DNA from: an uncultured Acidimicrobiales bacterium
Lineage (GTDB): Bacteria; Actinomycetota; Acidimicrobiia; Acidimicrobiales; SHLQ01
Reading direction: 5' to 3'
Length of the DNA stretch: 64,000 nucleotides
NCBI GenBank assembly: GCA_938084885.1
Contig: CALKGG010000028.1
Location: 1 to 64,000 of the forward strand
Positions 11,340 to 21,175 of the stretch are shown here, piece after piece (within the stretch, counting starts at the first letter, position 1; each line of letters begins with the position of its first letter). The notes under the pieces were generated by a model. The model was given only the letters and a program-made list of their open reading frames with translations, did no database searches and was not told the origin of the DNA. A program made the translations under genes and the position numbers.

Positions 11340-11858
11340 ATGGACGCTCGTTCGATCGCTGCGGTGTGTGATCAACTGACGACCACCGGCGGATTTCGGC
11401 TCGAACCCTGGCGCGAAGCCTGGGCCGGCACTCTCGTCGAGGCCTGGACCGACCCCGATATTGCTCGGTGGAATCCGGTGCCACCAGAACCATCGATCGA
11501 ACGTGCGTCGTCGTGGATTCTCAGCACCGCGTCCCAAAATGAAGCCAGTGTCGGGATCGATGTGGTGCTCGTCGACGACCACAGCGACACTCCAGCTGGT
11601 GAGATTGGTTTGCAGATCGACCCAGCCCAGGCAATTGCTGAGATTGGGTTCTGGCTCGCTCGGCCATTCCGCGGTCGGGGAATTGGACAAACCCTGCTCA
11701 GCAGCGCCGAAGAACTTGCCAAGGTTCTCGAGCTTCGTGGATTGATAGCTCTTGTCGATCCCGCCAACAACGCGGCCATCTCGGTGTGTGCAGCACGAGG
11801 CTGGGTCGAGGTTCCCACTCGAAGCCATCGTCGGGCCTGGGCGTATCGAGCAGCCTGA
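11340..11858 (+). CDS. GNAT family N-acetyltransferase
   Basis: Acetyl-CoA-dependent transferase of about 172 residues, closest in look to the RimJ/RimL group. The acetyl-CoA pyrophosphate loop RPFRGRGIGQTLL is near residue 108, followed by the N-N-AISVCAARGW segment near 140 that is typical of these proteins. The substrate is unknown. It stands alone between nusB and pyrR, 58 nt after nusB and 111 nt before pyrR. No clear ribosome binding site precedes ATG 11340. Confidence 0.82.
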   Translation: MDARSIAAVCDQLTTTGGFRLEPWREAWAGTLVEAWTDPDIARWNPVPPEPSIERASSWILSTASQNEASVGIDVVLVDDHSDTPAGEIGLQIDPAQAIAEIGFWLARPFRGRGIGQTLLSSAEELAKVLELRGLIALVDPANNAAISVCAARGWVEVPTRSHRRAWAYRAA

Positions 11859-11935
11859 CCAAAAACTTCCAAATTCCCGTCCCTCAGTGGCGCGACTTGC
11901 GTGGCAAACCACTACGGTGACTTTCGTTCGTGAAG

Positions 11936-11953
11936 CGGGTCCCGTGAGGCCCG
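11936..11953 (+). promoter_or_regulatory. PyrR-binding RNA hairpin in the pyr operon leader
   Basis: The transcript can form a six-pair stem (CGGGUC with GGCCCG) closed by the six-base loop CCGUGA. This fits the PyrR-binding consensus, which has a CNGNGA loop on a UC/GG closing stem inside UCCNGNGAGGY. The hairpin ends 7 nt before the GGAGG ribosome binding site of pyrR (11961-11965). No terminator hairpin follows, so PyrR-UMP would act by blocking translation initiation rather than by attenuation, as shown for Mycobacterium smegmatis. Match to the consensus is seen; function is inferred. A weak -10 (TACGGT, 11913-11918) lies just upstream. Confidence 0.8.
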
Positions 11954-11969
11954 TACGAATGGAGGAATT

Positions 11970-12581
11970 GTGGCAGACGCGGATCTTCGGCGAACCCGAG
12001 CGGTCGCCTTTGGACGAAGTGGGTTGAGCAGATTTGTTCCCCAGACCACCGTTCTCAACGCTGACGATGTGGCCCGCGCCCTCAAACGCATGGCTCACGA
12101 GATCATCGAAGCAAACAGCGGTCTCGACGATGTCATCATCATTGGTATGGAACGGGGCGGAGTCCCGATCGCCACCGCAATTGCGAGCGCACTCGAGTCG
12201 ATCGAAAACCACGCCATCGAGTTCGGGACGCTCGACGTGAGCTTCTACCGCGACGATATTTCCACCACATCGATCCTTCCCGAGGTCACAAAGATGCCCT
12301 ACTCGGTGACGAACAAGCACGTGGTCCTCTGCGACGACGTGCTCTTCACAGGCCGCACCGTCCGCGCTGCACTCGACGCCGTAACCGACTTTGGTCGACC
12401 GAAGAGCATCCAGCTTGCCGTGATGGTCGACCGAGGACATCGCGAACTGCCAATCCGGCCAGACTTCGTTGGAAAGAACCTCCCAACATCGCGAAGCGAA
12501 AGCGTCCGGGTATCGATCGACGGCGTCGAACTTGGCACGACCGAACGAATCGAATCGGGCACTCGAGAGAGCGATTCGTGA
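11970..12581 (+). CDS. pyrR: PyrR: pyr operon RNA-binding regulator / uracil phosphoribosyltransferase
   Basis: UMP-responsive RNA-binding repressor of pyrimidine genes with a PRTase fold. The 203 residues include an N-terminal extension of about 20 residues. The PRPP loop is at VVLCDDVLFTGRTVRAALDA (near residue 115), and RGG in GMERGGVPIA and MVDRGHRELPIRPDFVGKN are PyrR-specific. The GTG start at 11970 is set by GGAGG at 11961-11965. It heads an operon in which each gene through pyrD overlaps the one before by 1-4 nt. The RNA hairpin in front of it makes autoregulation of the whole operon likely. Confidence 0.95.
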   Translation: MADADLRRTRAVAFGRSGLSRFVPQTTVLNADDVARALKRMAHEIIEANSGLDDVIIIGMERGGVPIATAIASALESIENHAIEFGTLDVSFYRDDISTTSILPEVTKMPYSVTNKHVVLCDDVLFTGRTVRAALDAVTDFGRPKSIQLAVMVDRGHRELPIRPDFVGKNLPTSRSESVRVSIDGVELGTTERIESGTRESDS

Positions 12582-13498
12582 ACGACCTGCTCACCATTGA
12601 GGATCTCGGCGCCGACGGCATCAACGAGATCATGCTCACCGCCGACAGCATGGCCGAAGTCAGCGCTCGGCCCATCCCCAAAGTTCCCGCGCTACGTGGC
12701 AAGACCGTTGCGTCGATGTTCTTCGAAGACTCGACGAGAACGCGAACGTCGTTCGAAACCGCGGCCAAACGGCTGTCTGCCGATGTGCTCAACTTCAGCG
12801 CCTCATCATCGTCGGTTAACAAGGGCGAGTCCCTACGCGACACCGTCGAAACCATCGAAGCCATGGGCGTCGACGCCATCATTGTTCGGCATCGCTCCTC
12901 GGGTGCACCACGCCAAGTTGCCCAATGGGCCGAGGCGCCGGTGATCAACGCAGGCGATGGTTGGCACGCACACCCAACCCAGTCGCTTCTCGACGCCTAC
13001 ACAATCCGTGCCGAAGGCCGCGACTTCGAAGGGCTCAATATCGCCATCGTGGGCGACGTCTCCCATAGTCGGGTCGCCCGCAGCAACATCGAAGCCTTCT
13101 CGGTGCTCGGCGCCAACGTCACACTCGTCGCACCACCAACGCTGCTCCCGCCTCACGTCGAAGCACTCGGGGCAACGGTCTCGCACAGCCTCGACGCCGT
13201 GCTCGCCGAAACCGACGTGCTGTACCTGCTTCGAATGCAGCACGAACGCATGGACCAAGCGTTGGTGCCCTCGCTTGGTGAATATCACCGAACCTTCGGC
13301 CTGACCCCCGAACGGGCAAAGCAACTACCGTCGAACGCGTTGATCATGCACCCCGGCCCGATGAACCGAGGAATCGAGATCTCGCCCGAGGTCATCGATG
13401 ATCCTCGGGTTCGGGTGCTCAACCAGGTCGCGAATGGTGTGGTTGTACGAATGGCCGTCCTCTATTTGGTCGTTGGATCGAACGGAGGGGTCATATGA
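12578..13498 (+). CDS. pyrB: aspartate carbamoyltransferase catalytic chain
   Basis: Joins carbamoyl phosphate and aspartate to carbamoyl-aspartate. The 306 residues carry the carbamoyl-phosphate motif STRTRTSFE near residue 51, the HPTQSLLD motif near 130 and HPGPMNRG near 260. There is no pyrI. The GTG start overlaps the pyrR stop (GTGA) and the stop overlaps the pyrC ATG (ATGA). Actinobacterial PyrB can work as a trimer without regulatory subunits or associate with dihydroorotase; which applies here cannot be told. Confidence 0.96.
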   Translation: MNDLLTIEDLGADGINEIMLTADSMAEVSARPIPKVPALRGKTVASMFFEDSTRTRTSFETAAKRLSADVLNFSASSSSVNKGESLRDTVETIEAMGVDAIIVRHRSSGAPRQVAQWAEAPVINAGDGWHAHPTQSLLDAYTIRAEGRDFEGLNIAIVGDVSHSRVARSNIEAFSVLGANVTLVAPPTLLPPHVEALGATVSHSLDAVLAETDVLYLLRMQHERMDQALVPSLGEYHRTFGLTPERAKQLPSNALIMHPGPMNRGIEISPEVIDDPRVRVLNQVANGVVVRMAVLYLVVGSNGGVI

Positions 13499-14796
13499 GC
13501 ACGTTCCTCCACGGTGGGTCGATCGTCGGCCCGAACGGGGTCGAAACCGCCGACGTCTTGATCACCGGCAACTCGATCGTCGCAGTGGGAACGAACCTGC
13601 CGGTCCCTGCATCTGCTCGCACGATCGACAGCACCGGAATGGTCATACTTCCCGGTCTCGTCGACATTCATTCGCACCTTCGCGAACCAGGCAACGAAGA
13701 AGCCGAGACCATCCAAACCGGGGCCCGTGGTGCCGCGCTCGGCGGGTTTACTGCCGTTGTTGCAATGCCCAACACAAACCCGACGATCGATTCCCCCTCG
13801 GTTGTGCGCGATGTGCTCGCCCTCGCCGAGGGCGTGGCGTGCGAGGTGCTTCCGGCGGCCGCGATGACCGTTGGTCGAAAGGGCGAACTGCTCACCCCAA
13901 TGGGCGAACTCGCAGCAATGGGCGTGCGCATCTTCACCGACGACGGATCTGGCGTACAGAACCCGGCAATGATGCGCTCGATCATGGAATACGCCACAGG
14001 CCTTGAGGCAATCACCGACGGCGAACCCATCGTGCTCGCCCAGCATTGCGACGTGACGGCCCTGAGCGACCGTGGCCACATGCATGAAGGGGAGTGGTCG
14101 ACCCGGCTCGGTATGGCGGGCCAACCCGTCATTGCCGAAACGCTCATGATGCAGCGCGACGTTGCCCTCGCCGAACTAACCGGGGCACGAATCCACTTCC
14201 AACACGTGTCATCAGCCCATGGGGTCGAGATCATTCGGTCAGCCAAGGCATCGGGTTTGGCCGTCACCGCCGAAGCAACCACGCACCACTTCACGCTCAC
14301 CGATGCGGCATGCGCGGGATACGACCCGGTGTTCAAAGTGCACCCGCCACTGCGAACCAGCGACGATGTGGCAGCGATCCGCGAGGGGCTCGCCGACGGG
14401 ACGATCGACGCGATTGCGACCGATCATGCGCCGCACGAGCCACATACGAAAGAATTTTCCTTCGATCATGCACCGCCGGGAATGCTTGGCTTCGAAACAG
14501 CGCTCAGCCTTGCACTGCACGAGCTCGGCCTACCTCTTGAACGGATCGTCGAGTTGATGAGCGTACGACCCGCCGAAATCGCCGGCATTGGCGATAGGCA
14601 TGGACGCCTGATCGAAACGGGAAATCGGGCCAACCTGGCCATCGTCGACGTCGACGAAACGTGGACGGTGGCCGGCACTGCCATGGCGAGCAGAAGTCAG
14701 AACACCCCCTATGAGGGAAGAGAGCTGAAGGGCAAAGTGAAATACACGATCGTTGAAGGCGAGATCACTGTGGACCAAGGAGTAGCGACTCGATGA
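13495..14796 (+). CDS. pyrC: dihydroorotase
   Basis: Zinc amidohydrolase that cyclises carbamoyl-aspartate to dihydroorotate. The 433 residues fit the class I (multifunctional-type) enzymes. The metal motif reads DIHSHLREPG near residue 59, where most family members have DxHVHLREPG. AMPNTNP near 87, later His ligands, and ATDHAPH near 309 with the catalytic Asp are all present. It is linked by ATGA overlaps to pyrB upstream and carA downstream. Confidence 0.95.
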   Translation: MSTFLHGGSIVGPNGVETADVLITGNSIVAVGTNLPVPASARTIDSTGMVILPGLVDIHSHLREPGNEEAETIQTGARGAALGGFTAVVAMPNTNPTIDSPSVVRDVLALAEGVACEVLPAAAMTVGRKGELLTPMGELAAMGVRIFTDDGSGVQNPAMMRSIMEYATGLEAITDGEPIVLAQHCDVTALSDRGHMHEGEWSTRLGMAGQPVIAETLMMQRDVALAELTGARIHFQHVSSAHGVEIIRSAKASGLAVTAEATTHHFTLTDAACAGYDPVFKVHPPLRTSDDVAAIREGLADGTIDAIATDHAPHEPHTKEFSFDHAPPGMLGFETALSLALHELGLPLERIVELMSVRPAEIAGIGDRHGRLIETGNRANLAIVDVDETWTVAGTAMASRSQNTPYEGRELKGKVKYTIVEGEITVDQGVATR

Positions 14797-15896
14797 CCGG
14801 ACCAACACAAGCAGCACTCGTTCTCGCCGACGGGACCGTCTTTGAGGGCGAGGCATTCGGAGCGATCGCCGAAAATGGCGTGAGCAGCGGTGAGGTCGTG
14901 TTCAACACCGTCATGACCGGATACCAAGAGGTGATCACCGACCCCAGCTATGCCGGGCAGATCATCACCTTCACCTACCCCCACATTGGCAACTACGGAA
15001 CGAACGCCGTCGACCACGAGTCTCGGGCGTCGTTCTGTCGTGGCGTGATTATTCGCGACCCAGCCCGCCGGGCGAGCAACTACCGCAGCGAAGACGAGTT
15101 CTCGACATACCTGCTCGCCAACAACATCTCTGGCATTGCGGGCCTCGATACCCGTCGCCTCACCCGTCACATTCGTGACCTCGGAGCAATGCCTGGTGCC
15201 TTTGGCACCGCCGATGAAGCCACCCTCCTCGCTGCGGCAAAAGCCGAACCCGGAACCGACGGCATCGATCTCGTCTCGACGGTCACCTGCGCCGAGCCGT
15301 ACACGGTGAATGGTGACGGTCCTCGCACGATCGTCGCGCTCGACTTCGGTATCAAGACGTCGATCCTGACGCAGCTGAAACGTCTTGGCACGGTCGAGGT
15401 TGTGCCTGCGAGCACCACCGCAGCAGACATTCTCAGCCGGCATCCCGACGGAGTGTTTTTGTCGAACGGGCCCGGCGACCCCGAACCGCTCGGTTATATC
15501 CGCGAAACGATTTCCGAGCTGCTCGGTCAGGTCCCGATCTTTGGCATTTGCCTCGGCCATCAGCTGCTCGCAGCCACGCTTGGGGCAACCACCTACAAGC
15601 TGCCCTTCGGCCATCACGGCGGCAACCATCCAGTGATGCGGCTGCGGGACCGCAAGGTCGAGATCACCTCGCAGAACCACAACTTTGCGGTCGAAGAATC
15701 GTCGCTCGTCGGCGCCGAACTCACCCACATCAACCTGAACGACCACACCGTCCAAGGCCTCGCCTGCACCGACGTCGCCGCGTTCAGTGTCCAATACCAC
15801 CCAGAGGCGGGCCCCGGCCCGCACGACAGCCGCTATCTCTTCGATGACTTCGAAGCACTCATGGAGTCCACGAACTCCACGAACGGAGCGCTCTAA
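14793..15896 (+). CDS. carA: carbamoyl-phosphate synthase small (glutaminase) subunit
   Basis: Hydrolyses glutamine and channels ammonia to CarB. The 367 residues have the CarA-specific N-terminal half ([14 protein letters not shown]) followed by a class I glutamine amidotransferase domain. The nucleophile Cys is in [10 protein letters not shown] near residue 252, with SNGPGDPE near 225 and [10 protein letters not shown] near 335 completing the triad region. The start overlaps pyrC (ATGA) and the stop overlaps carB (TAATG). The product carbamoyl phosphate serves both pyrB here and argF at 62645. Confidence 0.97.
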
Positions 15897-18800
15897 TGCC
15901 GAAACGCACAGACATTTCTTCGATCATGGTGATCGGCTCAGGCCCGATCGTCATTGGCCAGGCATGCGAGTTCGACTACTCGGGCACCCAAGCCTGTCGC
16001 ATCCTTCGAGACGAGGGATATCGCATCATCTTGGCGAACTCGAACCCCGCCACGATCATGACCGACCCGGACTTCGCCGACGCCACCTACATCGAGCCGC
16101 TCGACGTGGCGGTCCTTGAGGCAATCATTGCCAAAGAGAACCCCGACGCGCTCCTGCCGACCCTCGGCGGTCAAACAGCGCTAAACCTGGCCATGGAGCT
16201 CGAAGAGGCCGGCATCTTGGCCACATACGACGTTGAACTCATCGGCGCCGACGCCGAGGCCATCGACACTGCCGAGAACCGTGATTCGTTCAAGAAGGCC
16301 ATGATCGAAATCGGCCTCGATGTTCCAAAGTCGGGGATTGCCCACGACATGGAAACCGCCCGCACCATCGCCGGTGAACTCGGACTCCCCGTGATCATCC
16401 GCCCCGCCTACATCCTCGGCGGCAAAGGAACCGGCATTGCCGAGACCGCCGAAGAGTTTGAACATGTCGCGTCGTCGGGCATCACGGCAAGCCCTATTGG
16501 CGAGATCCTCATCGAGGAGTCGATCAAGGGATGGAAAGAATACGAACTTGAGGTCATGCGAGACCACAAGGACAACCAAGTCGTTGTCTGTTCTATCGAG
16601 AACATCGACCCAATGGGTGTGCACACCGGCGACTCGATAACCGTTGCCCCAGCCCAGACGCTGAGCGATGTGGAGCTGCAACAAATGCGCGACGCCGCGT
16701 TTGCGGTGATGCGCCGGGTCGGCGTGGAAACCGGCGGTTCGAATGTCCAGTTCGCCGTCGACCCGGCGACCGGCCGTCAAGTCGTCATCGAGATGAACCC
16801 CCGGGTGTCTCGCTCGTCGGCGTTGGCATCGAAGGCCACAGGCTTTCCAATCGCCAAGATCGCCGCCCGGTTGGCTGTTGGCTACACACTCGACGAGATC
16901 CCGAACGACATCACCAAGCAGACCCCGGCCAGCTTTGAACCAACCATCGATTACGTCGTTACCAAAGTGCCACGGTGGGCCTTTGAGAAATTCCCCGGCA
17001 CGTCGGGCATCCTCGGCACACAAATGCAATCTGTGGGCGAGGCCATGGCCATTGGACGGACATTCCCCGAGTCGTTGCAGAAGGGTTTGCGCAGCCTCGA
17101 ACTCGGCCGCGATGGGCTCAACGGCGACTCCGCTGAGGTCGCACTCGACGCGCTCAGCATGGACGAACTTATGGTCCAGGCAAACACCCCAACGCCCGAT
17201 CGCATCTTCAAGCTTGAAGCCTTGCTGCGTCGCGGCAAGACGGTCGACGAGGTGCATGAACTGACCAAGGTCGACCCCTGGTTCCTCGACCAGATGCTGC
17301 GGATCACCGAAGAGCGTGAGGCACTCGAAGGCGAGTCGATCGCGTCGATGACCACACGGGGTTGGAAGCGGGCCAAACAACTCGGGTTCTCCGATGCACA
17401 GCTTTCCTACCTGTGGTCGGTTCCCGTTTCCGAGGTGCGCACTGCACGCAAAGCCGCTGGAGTCGAGCCAACATACAAAACTGTCGACACCTGCGGTGCC
17501 GAGTTCGACGCCGAAACCCCCTATCACTACTCGACGTGGGAAGACACGACCGAGGTTCGTCCATCAGATCGCGAGAAGGTCATGATCCTTGGATCGGGCC
17601 CAAACCGGATCGGGCAGGGAATCGAGTTCGACTACTGCTGTGTGCATGCGAGTTTCGCGCTTTCCGATGCTGGTTATGAGACAATCATGGTCAACTGCAA
17701 CCCCGAGACCGTCTCGACCGACTACGACACAAGCGACCGGCTCTACTTCGAACCGCTCACGCTCGAAGACGTACACAACATCATCGAGGCCGAAAAGCCC
17801 ATGGGAATCGTTGTGTCGCTCGGGGGCCAGACGCCGCTAAAGCTGGCGAACGATCTTCCAGCCGAACTCGTTGTTGGCACGTCGCCAAAATCCATCGACC
17901 TCGCCGAGGACCGCGAACAATGGAACGCCCTGTGCGAACGGCTGGCCATCCCACAACCTCCCGGCGGCACCGCAACCACGACCGAACAAGCGCTCGAGAT
18001 CATCTCGGGTATTGGCTATCCCGCACTCGTGCGGCCGTCATATGTGCTCGGCGGTCGGGCGATGGAAATCGTCTATGACGACGCGGGCCTGCGCTCGGCA
18101 ATGGACCAGCTCGCAACGTTTGGTTCGCTCGGACGCGAGGGGGGCCTGTCGGCCGAACGCCCCGTGCTCATCGATCGATTCCTCGAAGACGCAATAGAAG
18201 TCGACGTCGACGCCATCCGTGATAGCTCAGGCAATTCGATGATCGGCGCCGTCATGGAACACGTCGAAGAAGCCGGCGTGCACTCCGGAGACAGCGCCTG
18301 TGTCATCCCCCCACCAACGCTTTCCGCCGCCGTCATTGCAACGCTTGAGCAACATGCGATCACGATTGCGAACGAGCTCGAAGTTGTTGGTCTAATCAAC
18401 GTGCAATTCGCCGTCAAGGACGAGCAGGTCTATGTCATCGAGGCAAACCCTCGGGCATCACGCACCGTGCCATTTGTCGCCAAGGCAACCGGAGTTCCGC
18501 TCGCCAAGATCGCAGCTCGAGTCATGCTTGGCGCCACGCTCGACGAGCTACGCACCGAAGGCCTCGTCAGAGAACCAATCACTGGACATGTGTCGGTAAA
18601 GGAAGCCGTGCTGCCCTTCAACCGGTTCCCCGACGCCGACCCGTTGCTCGGCCCCGAGATGCGGTCGACCGGCGAGGTCATGGGCATCGACTCGACGACC
18701 GGACGTGCCTTCACCAAGAGCCAAATGGCAGCTGGCGGCACGCTTCCAGAGTCGGGAACGGTCTTTTTCTCACTCGCCGACCGAGACAAGGCCGTGGGAA

Positions 18801-19186
18801 CAGAGGCTGCAAAACAGTTCGTCGAGCTGGGGTTCAGCATCGTTGCCACGCCCGGCACCGCAGACGTGTTCGAAGCCGCTGGTGTCAGCGTGCAACAACG
18901 GCTAAGCAAGCTCACCAACACGACCCAAACAGCACCGCCCGAAGGGCGAACAGCAGTCGACCTCATCGAAGCTGGCGAAATCGTGCTCGTCGTCAACAGC
19001 CCGGCCGGACGTGGCCCACGAGCCGACGGCGCATACATCCGGGCCGCTGCCGGCGCCCACAGCATCCCACTGCTCACCACCGGGTCTGCAGCGCGTGCAG
19101 CAGCCCGAGGCATGGCCGACTGGCTCGAGTCGCCGTTGAGCGTGAAATCATTGCAGGAGTACCACGCCAGCGGGGCATCCAGCTAA
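15896..19186 (+). CDS. carB: carbamoyl-phosphate synthase large subunit
   Basis: Makes carbamoyl phosphate from bicarbonate, ammonia and two ATP. It has 1096 residues, the full family length, with two homologous ATP-grasp halves. The first begins with [19 protein letters not shown]. The second begins near residue 564 with [21 protein letters not shown]-terminal MGS-like allosteric domain (about 960-1080, [14 protein letters not shown]) normally binds UMP/ornithine effectors. It overlaps carA and pyrD by 1 nt each. No frameshift is seen. Confidence 0.98.
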
Positions 19187-20103
19187 TGGTCGACATGTCG
19201 ACACGGGTCGGGAACGTGCTGCTTCCAAACCCCGTCATGACCGCGTCTGGCACCGCAGGCCACGGCAGCGAGCTCGGCCGGTATGTGCCCCTCGATTCGC
19301 TCGGGGCGCTCGTAGTCAAGTCGTTGTCGATCATGGAATGGGAAGGCAATCCTGGACCTCGCGTCGTCCAGCTTCCGGGCGCCATGATGAATAGTGTCGG
19401 GCTTCAAGGGCCGGGCGTTGCCGGATGGATTGCCGATGAGCTGCCCGCACTGCGAGCGTCGGGGGCGCGAATCGTCGCCAGCATCTGGGGTCGCACGGTC
19501 GAGGAATACCGTCAGGCCGCCGAAGCGCTGGTTCCCGTCCAAGACGACCTGATCGCCGTCGAGATCAACGTGTCATGTCCCAACATCGAAGACCGGCGCA
19601 AGATGTTCGCCCATAGTTGCGAGAGCGCAGCGACGGTTATTTTGGCAACGAACGCACTCGACGTTCCGCGTTGGGCAAAGCTCAGCCCGAATGTCTCCGA
19701 TATTGCCGAGATCGCCGGTGCTGCTGGCGAGGCCGGAGCCGCCGCGGTAACACTCACGAATACGCTGCTGGGGCTCGTACTCGACCCAGCGACTGGTCAG
19801 CCCGTGCTCGGCGGGGGAGGCGGCGGGGTCTCCGGGCCGGCAATGCGTCCGGTTGCACTTCGCGCCGTATTCGATGTGGCAGCGGCCTATCCAGAGCTTC
19901 CAATCGTTGGGGTTGGGGGTATCGCAGACGCCGAAGATGCCGTGCAGTACCTTCGAGCCGGAGCGAGTGCGGTACAGGTCGGAACAGCGACGTTTGCTGA
20001 TCCCCGATCCACCGCACGAGTCACCAAAGCACTCGAGACATGGTGCAACAAGGCCAGGGTTCCTCGCGTTGCCGATCTGATCGGTACCGCGCACTCCCGC
20101 TGA
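19186..20103 (+). CDS. pyrD: dihydroorotate dehydrogenase, class 1B-type catalytic subunit
   Basis: FMN enzyme oxidising dihydroorotate to orotate. The 305 residues look like class 1B: a Cys base in NVSCPN near residue 129, MNSVGLQGPGV near 66, LSPNVSDIAEIA near 162 and VGVGGIADAEDA near 242. There is no membrane anchor domain. Class 1B enzymes normally pair with the iron-sulfur/FAD subunit PyrK and use NAD. No pyrK is adjacent or elsewhere in the window, and mycobacteria use class 2, so the electron acceptor here is open. The start overlaps the carB stop (TAATG). Confidence 0.93.
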   Translation: MVDMSTRVGNVLLPNPVMTASGTAGHGSELGRYVPLDSLGALVVKSLSIMEWEGNPGPRVVQLPGAMMNSVGLQGPGVAGWIADELPALRASGARIVASIWGRTVEEYRQAAEALVPVQDDLIAVEINVSCPNIEDRRKMFAHSCESAATVILATNALDVPRWAKLSPNVSDIAEIAGAAGEAGAAAVTLTNTLLGLVLDPATGQPVLGGGGGGVSGPAMRPVALRAVFDVAAAYPELPIVGVGGIADAEDAVQYLRAGASAVQVGTATFADPRSTARVTKALETWCNKARVPRVADLIGTAHSR

Positions 20104-20154: not shown

Positions 20155-20859
20155 ATGGAAAGCATGGACACCGTAGACATCGAACTTCGCAGCAAGTTGT
20201 GTGTCGCCCTCGACGTCGACGACATGGTCGAAGCAGTCCGCATCGCACGCGAATTATCGCCGTGGTTCGGCGTTGCCAAAGTTGGGCTCGAACTGTTCAC
20301 CGCCGCAGGAACCGACGCCATTGGCATCCTGACCGGCCTCGGATACGACGTCTTCCTCGACCTCAAGATGTACGACATTCCAACAACGGTCGAGAAGGCC
20401 TCTCGTGTGCTTGGTGCACTCGGCGTTACGTATGCGACCTACCACGCGCAAGGCGGAATGGACGTGCTTGCGGCCGGTGCGAACGGTCTGCGCCAAGGTG
20501 CAGCCGACGCTGGTCTCGATGAGCCCGTTCCACTGGCCATCACTGTGCTCACGTCCGATGCGAACGCTCCCGAACACATCATGCCCGCACGTGTCCGCCT
20601 CGCCGTCGAAGCAGGCATGGGCGGTTTGGTGTGTGGACCAAACGATGTCAAGGAAGCAAAGCAGTACGCGCCTCGGCTGTTCGGTGTCACCCCGGGTATT
20701 CGCCCCGAGGGCGCCGATCACCACGACCAAGTTCGTGTGGCGACGCCAAAGGCCGCACTCGACAACGGATCGGACCTTCTCGTCATTGGCCGCGCCGTCA
20801 CCCTTGCCGAAGATCGTGCAGCTGCAGCGGAAGCAATCGTCAACAGCTGTTTAAGCTAG
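20155..20859 (+). CDS. pyrF: orotidine 5'-phosphate decarboxylase
   Basis: Last step of UMP synthesis. The 234 residues are of the E. coli/Bacillus type: LCVALDVDD near residue 15, the catalytic DLKMYDIPTTV near 64 with the charged D-K-D network, and GVTPGIRPEG near 183. Mycobacteria carry a longer, different type of PyrF, so this differs from that group. ATG 20155 and ATG 20164 are both possible starts. It lies 51 nt after pyrD and 4 nt before the mIHF gene, so the pyr and mihF-gmk units may be cotranscribed. pyrE is absent from the window. Confidence 0.94.
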   Translation: MESMDTVDIELRSKLCVALDVDDMVEAVRIARELSPWFGVAKVGLELFTAAGTDAIGILTGLGYDVFLDLKMYDIPTTVEKASRVLGALGVTYATYHAQGGMDVLAAGANGLRQGAADAGLDEPVPLAITVLTSDANAPEHIMPARVRLAVEAGMGGLVCGPNDVKEAKQYAPRLFGVTPGIRPEGADHHDQVRVATPKAALDNGSDLLVIGRAVTLAEDRAAAAEAIVNSCLS

Positions 20860-20863
20860 GACC

Positions 20864-21175
20864 ATGTTCGATAGTGCTGCATACGACGACCTGTTCGCTT
20901 CGATCGACGAGGTGAAAGCGCACCGTGCGGCCTTCGTCAGCGAACTCAAAACCGGTTCGGTGGTGCTCGCCGAGGTGTTCGCGAGGGCGAGCGTCGATCC
21001 GGTGCTTTCGGCAATGAAGGTGCTTCCCGCTATCGAAGCGCTACCCGAGACAGGCAAAGTGTCGACTCGACGGGCCTTTGGCGAGCTCGGCATCGACGAA
21101 GCAGCCCTCATTTCGGACGTGCCAGCCACGGCCATCGATGCCTTACCAAGCGCAATTGTGCGGCACGCGCTGTAA
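20864..21175 (+). CDS. mihF: integration host factor, actinobacterial type (mIHF)
   Basis: Small nucleoid-associated DNA-bending protein specific to actinobacteria. The 103 residues share the mIHF core: a helix rich in Ala/Arg (VKAHRAAFVSELKTGS), then VLAEVFARASVDPVL, and the conserved KVLPAIEALPETGKVSTRRAF with a helix-hairpin-helix-like element. Position directly before gmk and rpoZ is the same as in Mycobacterium and Streptomyces, which supports the call. AGGA overlaps the pyrF stop just before ATG 20864. The stop overlaps the gmk ATG (TAATG). Confidence 0.87.
   Translation: MFDSAAYDDLFASIDEVKAHRAAFVSELKTGSVVLAEVFARASVDPVLSAMKVLPAIEALPETGKVSTRRAFGELGIDEAALISDVPATAIDALPSAIVRHAL

Follow-up and report, generated by a model that had tools for sequence, protein, structure and literature searches.

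A PyrR-type leader hairpin at the first ribosome-binding site of an Acidimicrobiales pyr operon and a terminator-shaped hairpin in leaders of its relatives

PyrR regulation has been published in two modes, attenuation and translational repression, and the pyr operon studied here raises the question of which of them its leader serves. PyrR-dependent translational repression of the pyr operon was reportedly described in Mycobacterium smegmatis by Fields and Switzer in 2007. For some translational riboswitches, premature termination after blocked translation is Rho-dependent. The window analysed here is a stretch of 64,000 nucleotides from an uncultured Acidimicrobiales bacterium (contig CALKGG010000028.1). 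A sequence-only reading of it had placed a PyrR-binding hairpin beside the ribosome-binding site of pyrR, had seen no terminator behind the hairpin, and had proposed translational repression of the whole operon as an extension of the mycobacterial mechanism to this lineage. One survey gives 211 PyrR motif sites, in groups that include Corynebacteriaceae and Mycobacteriaceae (PMC3766115). Searches of the open-licence literature, some of them poorly formed, turned up no publication on how PyrR acts in Acidimicrobiia, nor on any coding sequence that contains a PyrR terminator. In this study, we aimed to establish what the hairpin is, whether its relatives share it, and by which mode it would act.

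The pyrR leader and the pyr operon of the window

Direct reading of the leader confirmed the CNGNGA loop on UC/GG closing pairs (11940-11949), a match to the PyrR loop at each of its eight fixed letters. The loop sits on a stem of six pairs, one of them U-G, which ends 7 nt before GGAGG (Table 1). The sequence-only reading had described this upper part as it is and had missed the lower stem and the abutting -10 box. G11935 is able to pair with U11954 between the two stems, and the lower stem ends 10 nt before the start codon. The two-part stem with a purine bulge on its 5' side, the location in the leader of a pyr gene, and a PyrR encoded in the genome are the marks of a PyrR-binding hairpin; the place directly 5' of the first ribosome-binding site, with no terminator, is that of a mycobacterial-type PyrR repressor site. 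For the leader of 51 nt, the computed folding energy is -24.2 kcal/mol (z -3.92; 0/200 shuffles as low), and longer stretches around it give less extreme folds (z -2.56 and -2.07). The ten-letter loop motif by itself is not unusual, occurring 5 times in the window vs 3.04 expected.

Table 1. Positions of the leader elements and pyr genes in the window
Feature	Position	Strand	Basis or remark
-10-like TACGGT	11913..11918	+	Begins 27 nt before the loop-stem UC; predicted transcription start ~11924-11926
Lower stem, 5' strand TTCGT	11927..11931	+	Read directly; folds; homologous columns 11-14 with 38-41 covary
Purine bulge GAA, 5' side	11932..11934	+	Fold; in the alignment T14 (end of lower stem) and A16 (bulge) at least 90% conserved
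Upper stem, 5' strand CGGGUC (DNA CGGGTC)	11936..11941	+	Read directly; alignment columns 19-24 with 31-36
Hexaloop CCGUGA, PyrR type (CNGNGA)	11942..11947	+	Read directly; C25, G27, G29 and A30 invariant in relatives
Upper stem, 3' strand GGCCCG	11948..11953	+	Read directly; covariation
Lower stem, 3' strand ACGAA	11955..11959	+	Read directly; fold
Shine-Dalgarno GGAGG	11961..11965	+	1 nt past the five-pair lower stem
pyrR, bifunctional pyr regulator / uracil phosphoribosyltransferase, GTG start	11970..12581	+	NCBIfam NF003549, 224.7 bits (cutoff 138)
pyrB	12578..13498	+	Starts 4 nt inside pyrR (GTGA); NCBIfam match
pyrC	13495..14796	+	4-nt overlap with pyrB (ATGA); NCBIfam match
carA	14793..15896	+	4-nt overlap with pyrC (ATGA); NCBIfam match
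carB	15896..19186	+	1-nt overlap with carA; named by place and sequence
pyrD	19186..20103	+	1-nt overlap with carB; NCBIfam match
pyrF	20155..20859	+	51 nt past pyrD; NCBIfam match

No terminator-like site was found within 11700-12050, and no hairpin abutting a T-run was found 30-125 nt past the start of the loop motif. The window thus holds no terminator between the hairpin and the first start codon, as a Bacillus-type attenuator would. The Rfam model RF00515 gave no match on 11900-12000 even at E values up to 10, and its gathering threshold was not reached. In the minimum-energy fold, CUUUC at 11921-11925 pairs with GGAGG; this sequestration of the Shine-Dalgarno (SD) sequence was set aside because, judging by the conserved -10 box, the transcript begins only at about 11924-11926, and RNA starting there folds differently. 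Other folds of the leader pair the SD with coding sequence. Since no conserved SD-sequestering pairing was seen, it would have to be PyrR that covers the SD.

The window leader gave no complete match to a sigma-70-type promoter. A TANNNT box begins 21-34 nt upstream of the loop-stem UC in 98/108 class leaders, and in five control windows the counts were 2/108, 5/108, 5/107, 4/107, and 3/107. Because this box keeps a fixed distance in 98 of the 108 leaders, transcripts probably begin right at the base of the hairpin.

The overlapping operon proposed earlier was upheld, every open reading frame (ORF) from pyrR to pyrD overlapping the next by 1-4 nt, and so was the identity of PyrR, whose score stands well above the model cutoff. 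For PyrR, PyrB, PyrC, CarA, PyrD, and PyrF alike, one or more NCBIfam models score above cutoff. Of the 25 families displayed, PyrC passes the cutoff of TIGR00857 only; PyrF lies below the cutoff of PRK00230 (187.5 vs 193) and above that of TIGR01740. The window PyrR keeps the ELPIR..xVGKN motif of solved PyrR proteins, a region which we take to be RNA-binding. The GTG start of pyrR also stands, with the SD adjoining the hairpin and many relatives beginning at the same place with MAERER-like peptides. An acetyltransferase-like gene (11340-11858; weak family match, 29.3 bits, cutoff 170) lies between nusB and pyrR, and a small ORF past pyrF (20864-21175) gives a weak match to the family of actinobacterial integration host factors (41.9 bits vs a cutoff of 60).

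Conservation of the hairpin and its co-occurrence with PyrR

A total of 109 leaders was read, comprising the window's own, the 29 best matches, and 79 others chosen from the matches listed, mostly one per genus; families with low-scoring PyrR, such as f30, are absent from this set. By best motif score, 108/109 leaders had at least six of the eight fixed loop letters and 94 had all eight; one leader (L101) was dropped. In the resulting alignment of 108 leaders, preselected at a loop-motif score of at least 6/8, loop positions C25, G27, G29, and A30 are invariant. The stem pairs proved conserved and covarying, so that the sequence-only reading passed the comparative half of the refutation test it had set: 97.0% of the pair cells of the ten-pair structure are kept, and both sides have changed in 7/10 pairs (127 double-changed cells). 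In the upper stem, 98.1% of cells are paired and both-side changes occur in 4/6 pairs. The covariation score was 0.419 vs 0.163 in shuffles (0/500 as high) and at most 0.111 with slid partners, and RNAalifold recovered 9/10 pairs unprompted from this alignment. The lower stem is of the CCGU/ACGG type in most class leaders and TTCGT/ACGAA in the window. Judged from this alignment, the hairpin is genuine and strongly selected.

A covariance model built from the class leaders, the window's own included, found the window site in its own genome at E 1.6e-9, with the next best matches at E 1.28 and 9.45. Further PyrR targets in this genome did not rise above noise, and two weak matches (L113, L114) were not PyrR-like by eye. 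Among the best 80 PyrR loci of a contig search, 41 have titles containing Acidimicrobi-, and the closest belongs to an uncultured Acidimicrobiales bacterium (72% identity). By a strict rule, the hairpin was found in 71/80 of these loci, 66 of the 71 having the -10 box. Inspection by eye of loci missed by the rule showed a loop one base shorter (L252, L268), one base longer (L306), or a short stem (L275). No such hairpin was seen in five of the best 80 loci, L281, L284, L322 (Krumholzibacteriia), L298, and L323, all from outside the class and with the PyrR motif intact. These same five have a close PyrR and, in the leader, a long T-run behind an inverted repeat that is terminator-like by eye.

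Among 296 class genomes, PyrR was found at E 1e-20 or better in 252 and a hairpin match at E 0.001 or better in 213; the hairpin scan of these genomes used stricter filters, by which weak matches were lost. Both were present in 212 genomes, the hairpin only in 1, PyrR only in 40, and neither in 43. In the one genome with a hairpin only (G101), the loop has degenerated to CTGTTA, and no PyrR was found at E 1e-20. Behind its hairpin (L122) lie a 19-codon ORF with a terminator-shaped hairpin and then pyrC, the ORF being separate from pyrC; these remnants are possibly a relic of the pyrR start after pyrR was lost. Of the 40 PyrR-only genomes, 28 belong to one family, f30. Thirteen loci of the 40 were inspected, G272 and G280 being among those left out. 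Three f30 leaders were looked at, and two showed by eye a CNGNGA loop on other closing pairs while none was seen in the third. In L154 and L155 (f30, genomes of about 1 Mb), the loop stands on closing pairs other than UC/GG and the arginine of the PyrR ELPIR is changed, a possible co-change of protein and RNA. Divergent hairpins occur in G003, G006, G010, G012, G165, and G231. At the inspected loci of G250 and G004, PyrR is present and no hairpin is recognisable; their PyrR motif is altered, to LPIA..VGRVV and LPIQ..VGRDL, respectively.

A second match at E 0.001 or better was obtained in 8 class genomes. In seven of them it precedes carA, as confirmed by tblastn (G110, G019, G051, G202, G038, G062, G288); in G110 both sites belong to one cluster, with about 3.7 kb between them. 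None of the window's pyr genes was found beside the second match of G016. In three genomes of family f88 (L222, L328, L329), the match fetched precedes carA and not pyrR. At two carA sites (L136, L137), a tiny ORF begins past the hairpin and runs into the start of carA (ATGA), an arrangement suggestive of translational coupling between a leader peptide and carA.

A terminator-shaped hairpin in leaders of the class

A terminator-shaped hairpin was defined as a perfect hairpin of at least 7 pairs, at least 5 of them G-C, followed by at least 4 T in the next 8 nt. One was found past the PyrR hairpin in 53/108 class leaders from 27/45 families, the window's own genome not among them, and in 47/108 when at least 5 T were required. 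In control windows further downstream at the same loci, the counts were 29/1837 and, at 5 T, 9/1837. Of these 53 hairpins, 49 follow an in-frame, SD-preceded pyrR start, 2 an in-frame start without SD, and 2 none. The spacing from start codon to hairpin is 22-26 nt in 36 of the 49. In the best PyrR loci with five outsiders removed, a set that overlaps in part with the 108 leaders, the hairpin was found in 50/75 and lay 22-26 nt past the start in 46 of the 50. One example is L003 (1482-1513); in this leader and 52 further class leaders, and also in L305, the hairpin lies mostly in the first pyrR codons, with a peptide like MAERERRLTPPYGGVFVAR. No terminator hairpin was seen at the carA sites (0/10). 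G250 has neither the PyrR hairpin nor the terminator hairpin, and G101 keeps a terminator hairpin.

The statement that there is no terminator therefore holds for the window but not for its lineage. Translational repression, which had been deduced from the absence of a terminator, is the best reading for the window; because the terminator-shaped hairpin occurs in 53/108 class leaders, purely translational control cannot be assumed class-wide.

It is unlikely, in our judgement, that this additional hairpin in the relatives is not a terminator but serves as a DNA operator or merely follows from the encoded peptide TPPxGGVF. A palindrome, ACGCCCCC-N4-GGGGGCGT, does recur, and Pro-Pro-x-Gly-Gly codons are complementary by nature. 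The peptide XPPxGG is present in 77/157 leaders with a start, and the third positions of P1-G1 are Watson-Crick in 72/77 of these (shuffled mean 57.9, highest 64). P1-G1 alone of the five pairs is clearly above shuffles; the other four gave 70 vs 66.5 (highest 70), 73 vs 71.1 (73), 63 vs 59.1 (68), and 19 vs 16.7 (25), and do not stand out partly because these columns hardly vary. Against a peptide by-product, synonymous recoding of 128 leaders in 200 rounds left the hairpin in a mean of 9.5 and a maximum of 19, vs 77 observed, which argues that codon choice favours the hairpin. Gly1 is GGG in 66/77 (background 0.197) and the Val past the Gly pair is GTT in 60/68 (background 0.148), both backgrounds taken from the pyrR core of the 80 best loci. 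As judged from these codon patterns, the peptide does not explain the hairpin. The T-run is one-sided, and other families keep the hairpin with other stem sequences, in a set chosen for having a stem. An alignment of 46 hairpins with a 4-nt loop has both-side changes in 7/8 pairs, which, in a set so chosen, speaks for variety and not for selection.

In the window, no GC-rich stem of at least 7 pairs whose following 8 nt include 4 T or more was found past the pyrR start. The corresponding place has a weak stem only, which folds no better than shuffles, and TTTGTT remains there. The sister locus L247 is also without a terminator hairpin. With the T-rich remnant left and a weak stem beside it, the simplest reading would be that the terminator was lost in the window's genome, although this genome may never have had one.

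Models of regulation and known systems

The covariance model was matched in 239/396 genomes of a phylum sample that includes class members (E 0.01). Sixty non-class matches were chosen from those listed, of which 57 precede pyrR and 3 carA. Assigned by rule, the 57 non-class pyrR leaders comprised 21 with a terminator before the gene (6 of them lacked a recognised start codon and were labelled by the core match), 32 without a terminator, of which 16 had a start within 60 nt and 16 a start that was distant or unclear, 3 with a terminator and an ambiguous start, and 1 unplaced. The RF00515 gathering score was reached in 6/13 relatives given to the model, and the alignments displayed for three of these matches extend over a terminator stem and its U tail; no above-threshold match was obtained in the window or in four class loci tried. 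Across this sample, then, the PyrR element is present by sequence match both with and without leader terminators, and is more than a mycobacterial trait extended locally, contrary to what had been suggested for this lineage. Given the lack of an above-threshold RF00515 match in the window and the four class loci, PyrR regulation of this kind is probably under-annotated.

We consider it very probable that PyrR binds the hairpin at about 11926-11960 and through it controls the pyrRBC-carAB-pyrDF operon by translational repression. Transcription would start at the foot of the hairpin, leaving a 5' UTR of little more than the hairpin, the SD, and the GTG. At high UMP, PyrR-UMP would bind the CNGNGA loop and upper stem and cover the SD, so that pyrR would go untranslated, and the overlapping downstream genes would fall with it via translational coupling. 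A cryptic terminator or Rho site may also exist in the window leader, and is kept in view because relatives often have a terminator-shaped hairpin.

Attenuation of the Bacillus kind, in which PyrR would stabilise the hairpin as an anti-antiterminator and let a leader terminator form before pyrR, is quite improbable for the window. Its precedents are the relatives at gathering score, the terminator stems in the alignments shown, and the pre-gene terminators outside the class, all given above. The window leader, however, has no terminator-like site, and the 10 nt between lower stem and start codon leave no room for one. Nor is the 5' arm of the later hairpin complementary to the upstream leader, as an antiterminator would require (53 class leaders; z averaged +0.9 and never reached -2); this test carries little weight, since 20 non-class leaders with terminators also gave a weak signal (z averaged -0.38, with a single leader at -2.34). 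That the hairpin is a 5'-end stability or translation-enhancing structure only, with PyrR not its ligand, would suit its probable 5'-terminal position and strong fold, but hardly merits belief, since the invariant loop letters, the covarying stem, the co-occurrence with PyrR, and the reappearance before carA all point to PyrR recognition.

The chances seem to us evenly balanced that much of the class Acidimicrobiia possesses a hybrid switch, in which a PyrR block of ribosome entry is combined with an intrinsic terminator in the first pyrR codons, the window being a decayed descendant. With initiation blocked, the intragenic terminator would fold and RNA polymerase would stop about 100 nt from the start; an unblocked ribosome would keep the terminator open and transcription would continue. 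An old leader terminator would thus now lie inside the protein-coding sequence, and the window's genome would have been left with translational control alone. One phylum holds leader terminators, terminator-free leaders and, in Acidimicrobiia, a form that seemingly joins both. The intragenic form offers a concrete route by which an attenuator could become a translational repressor and, if the switch is real, it would stand midway between attenuation as in Bacillus and translational repression as in mycobacteria.

Compared with known systems, the window's own copy looks like a mycobacterial-type site and would be a natural extension of that type to the class; what would be new is the intragenic-terminator architecture of the lineage. 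As in Mycobacterium smegmatis, the PyrR-binding hairpin of the window adjoins the first ribosome-binding site and no leader terminator follows. The class differs from M. smegmatis in a lower stem that is mostly CCGU/ACGG and perhaps in the terminator-shaped hairpin of about half its leaders. With the Bacillus-type attenuator of RF00515, the window shares CNGNGA on UC/GG, the 5' bulge, the lower stem, and the same protein family, whereas neither antiterminator nor terminator was seen in its leader and the Rfam model does not detect it. The class switch would resemble termination after blocked translation, in that stalled initiation would expose a termination signal early in the coding region; unlike the Rho-dependent riboswitch cases, the signal of the relatives resembles an intrinsic terminator, and the switch would be PyrR.
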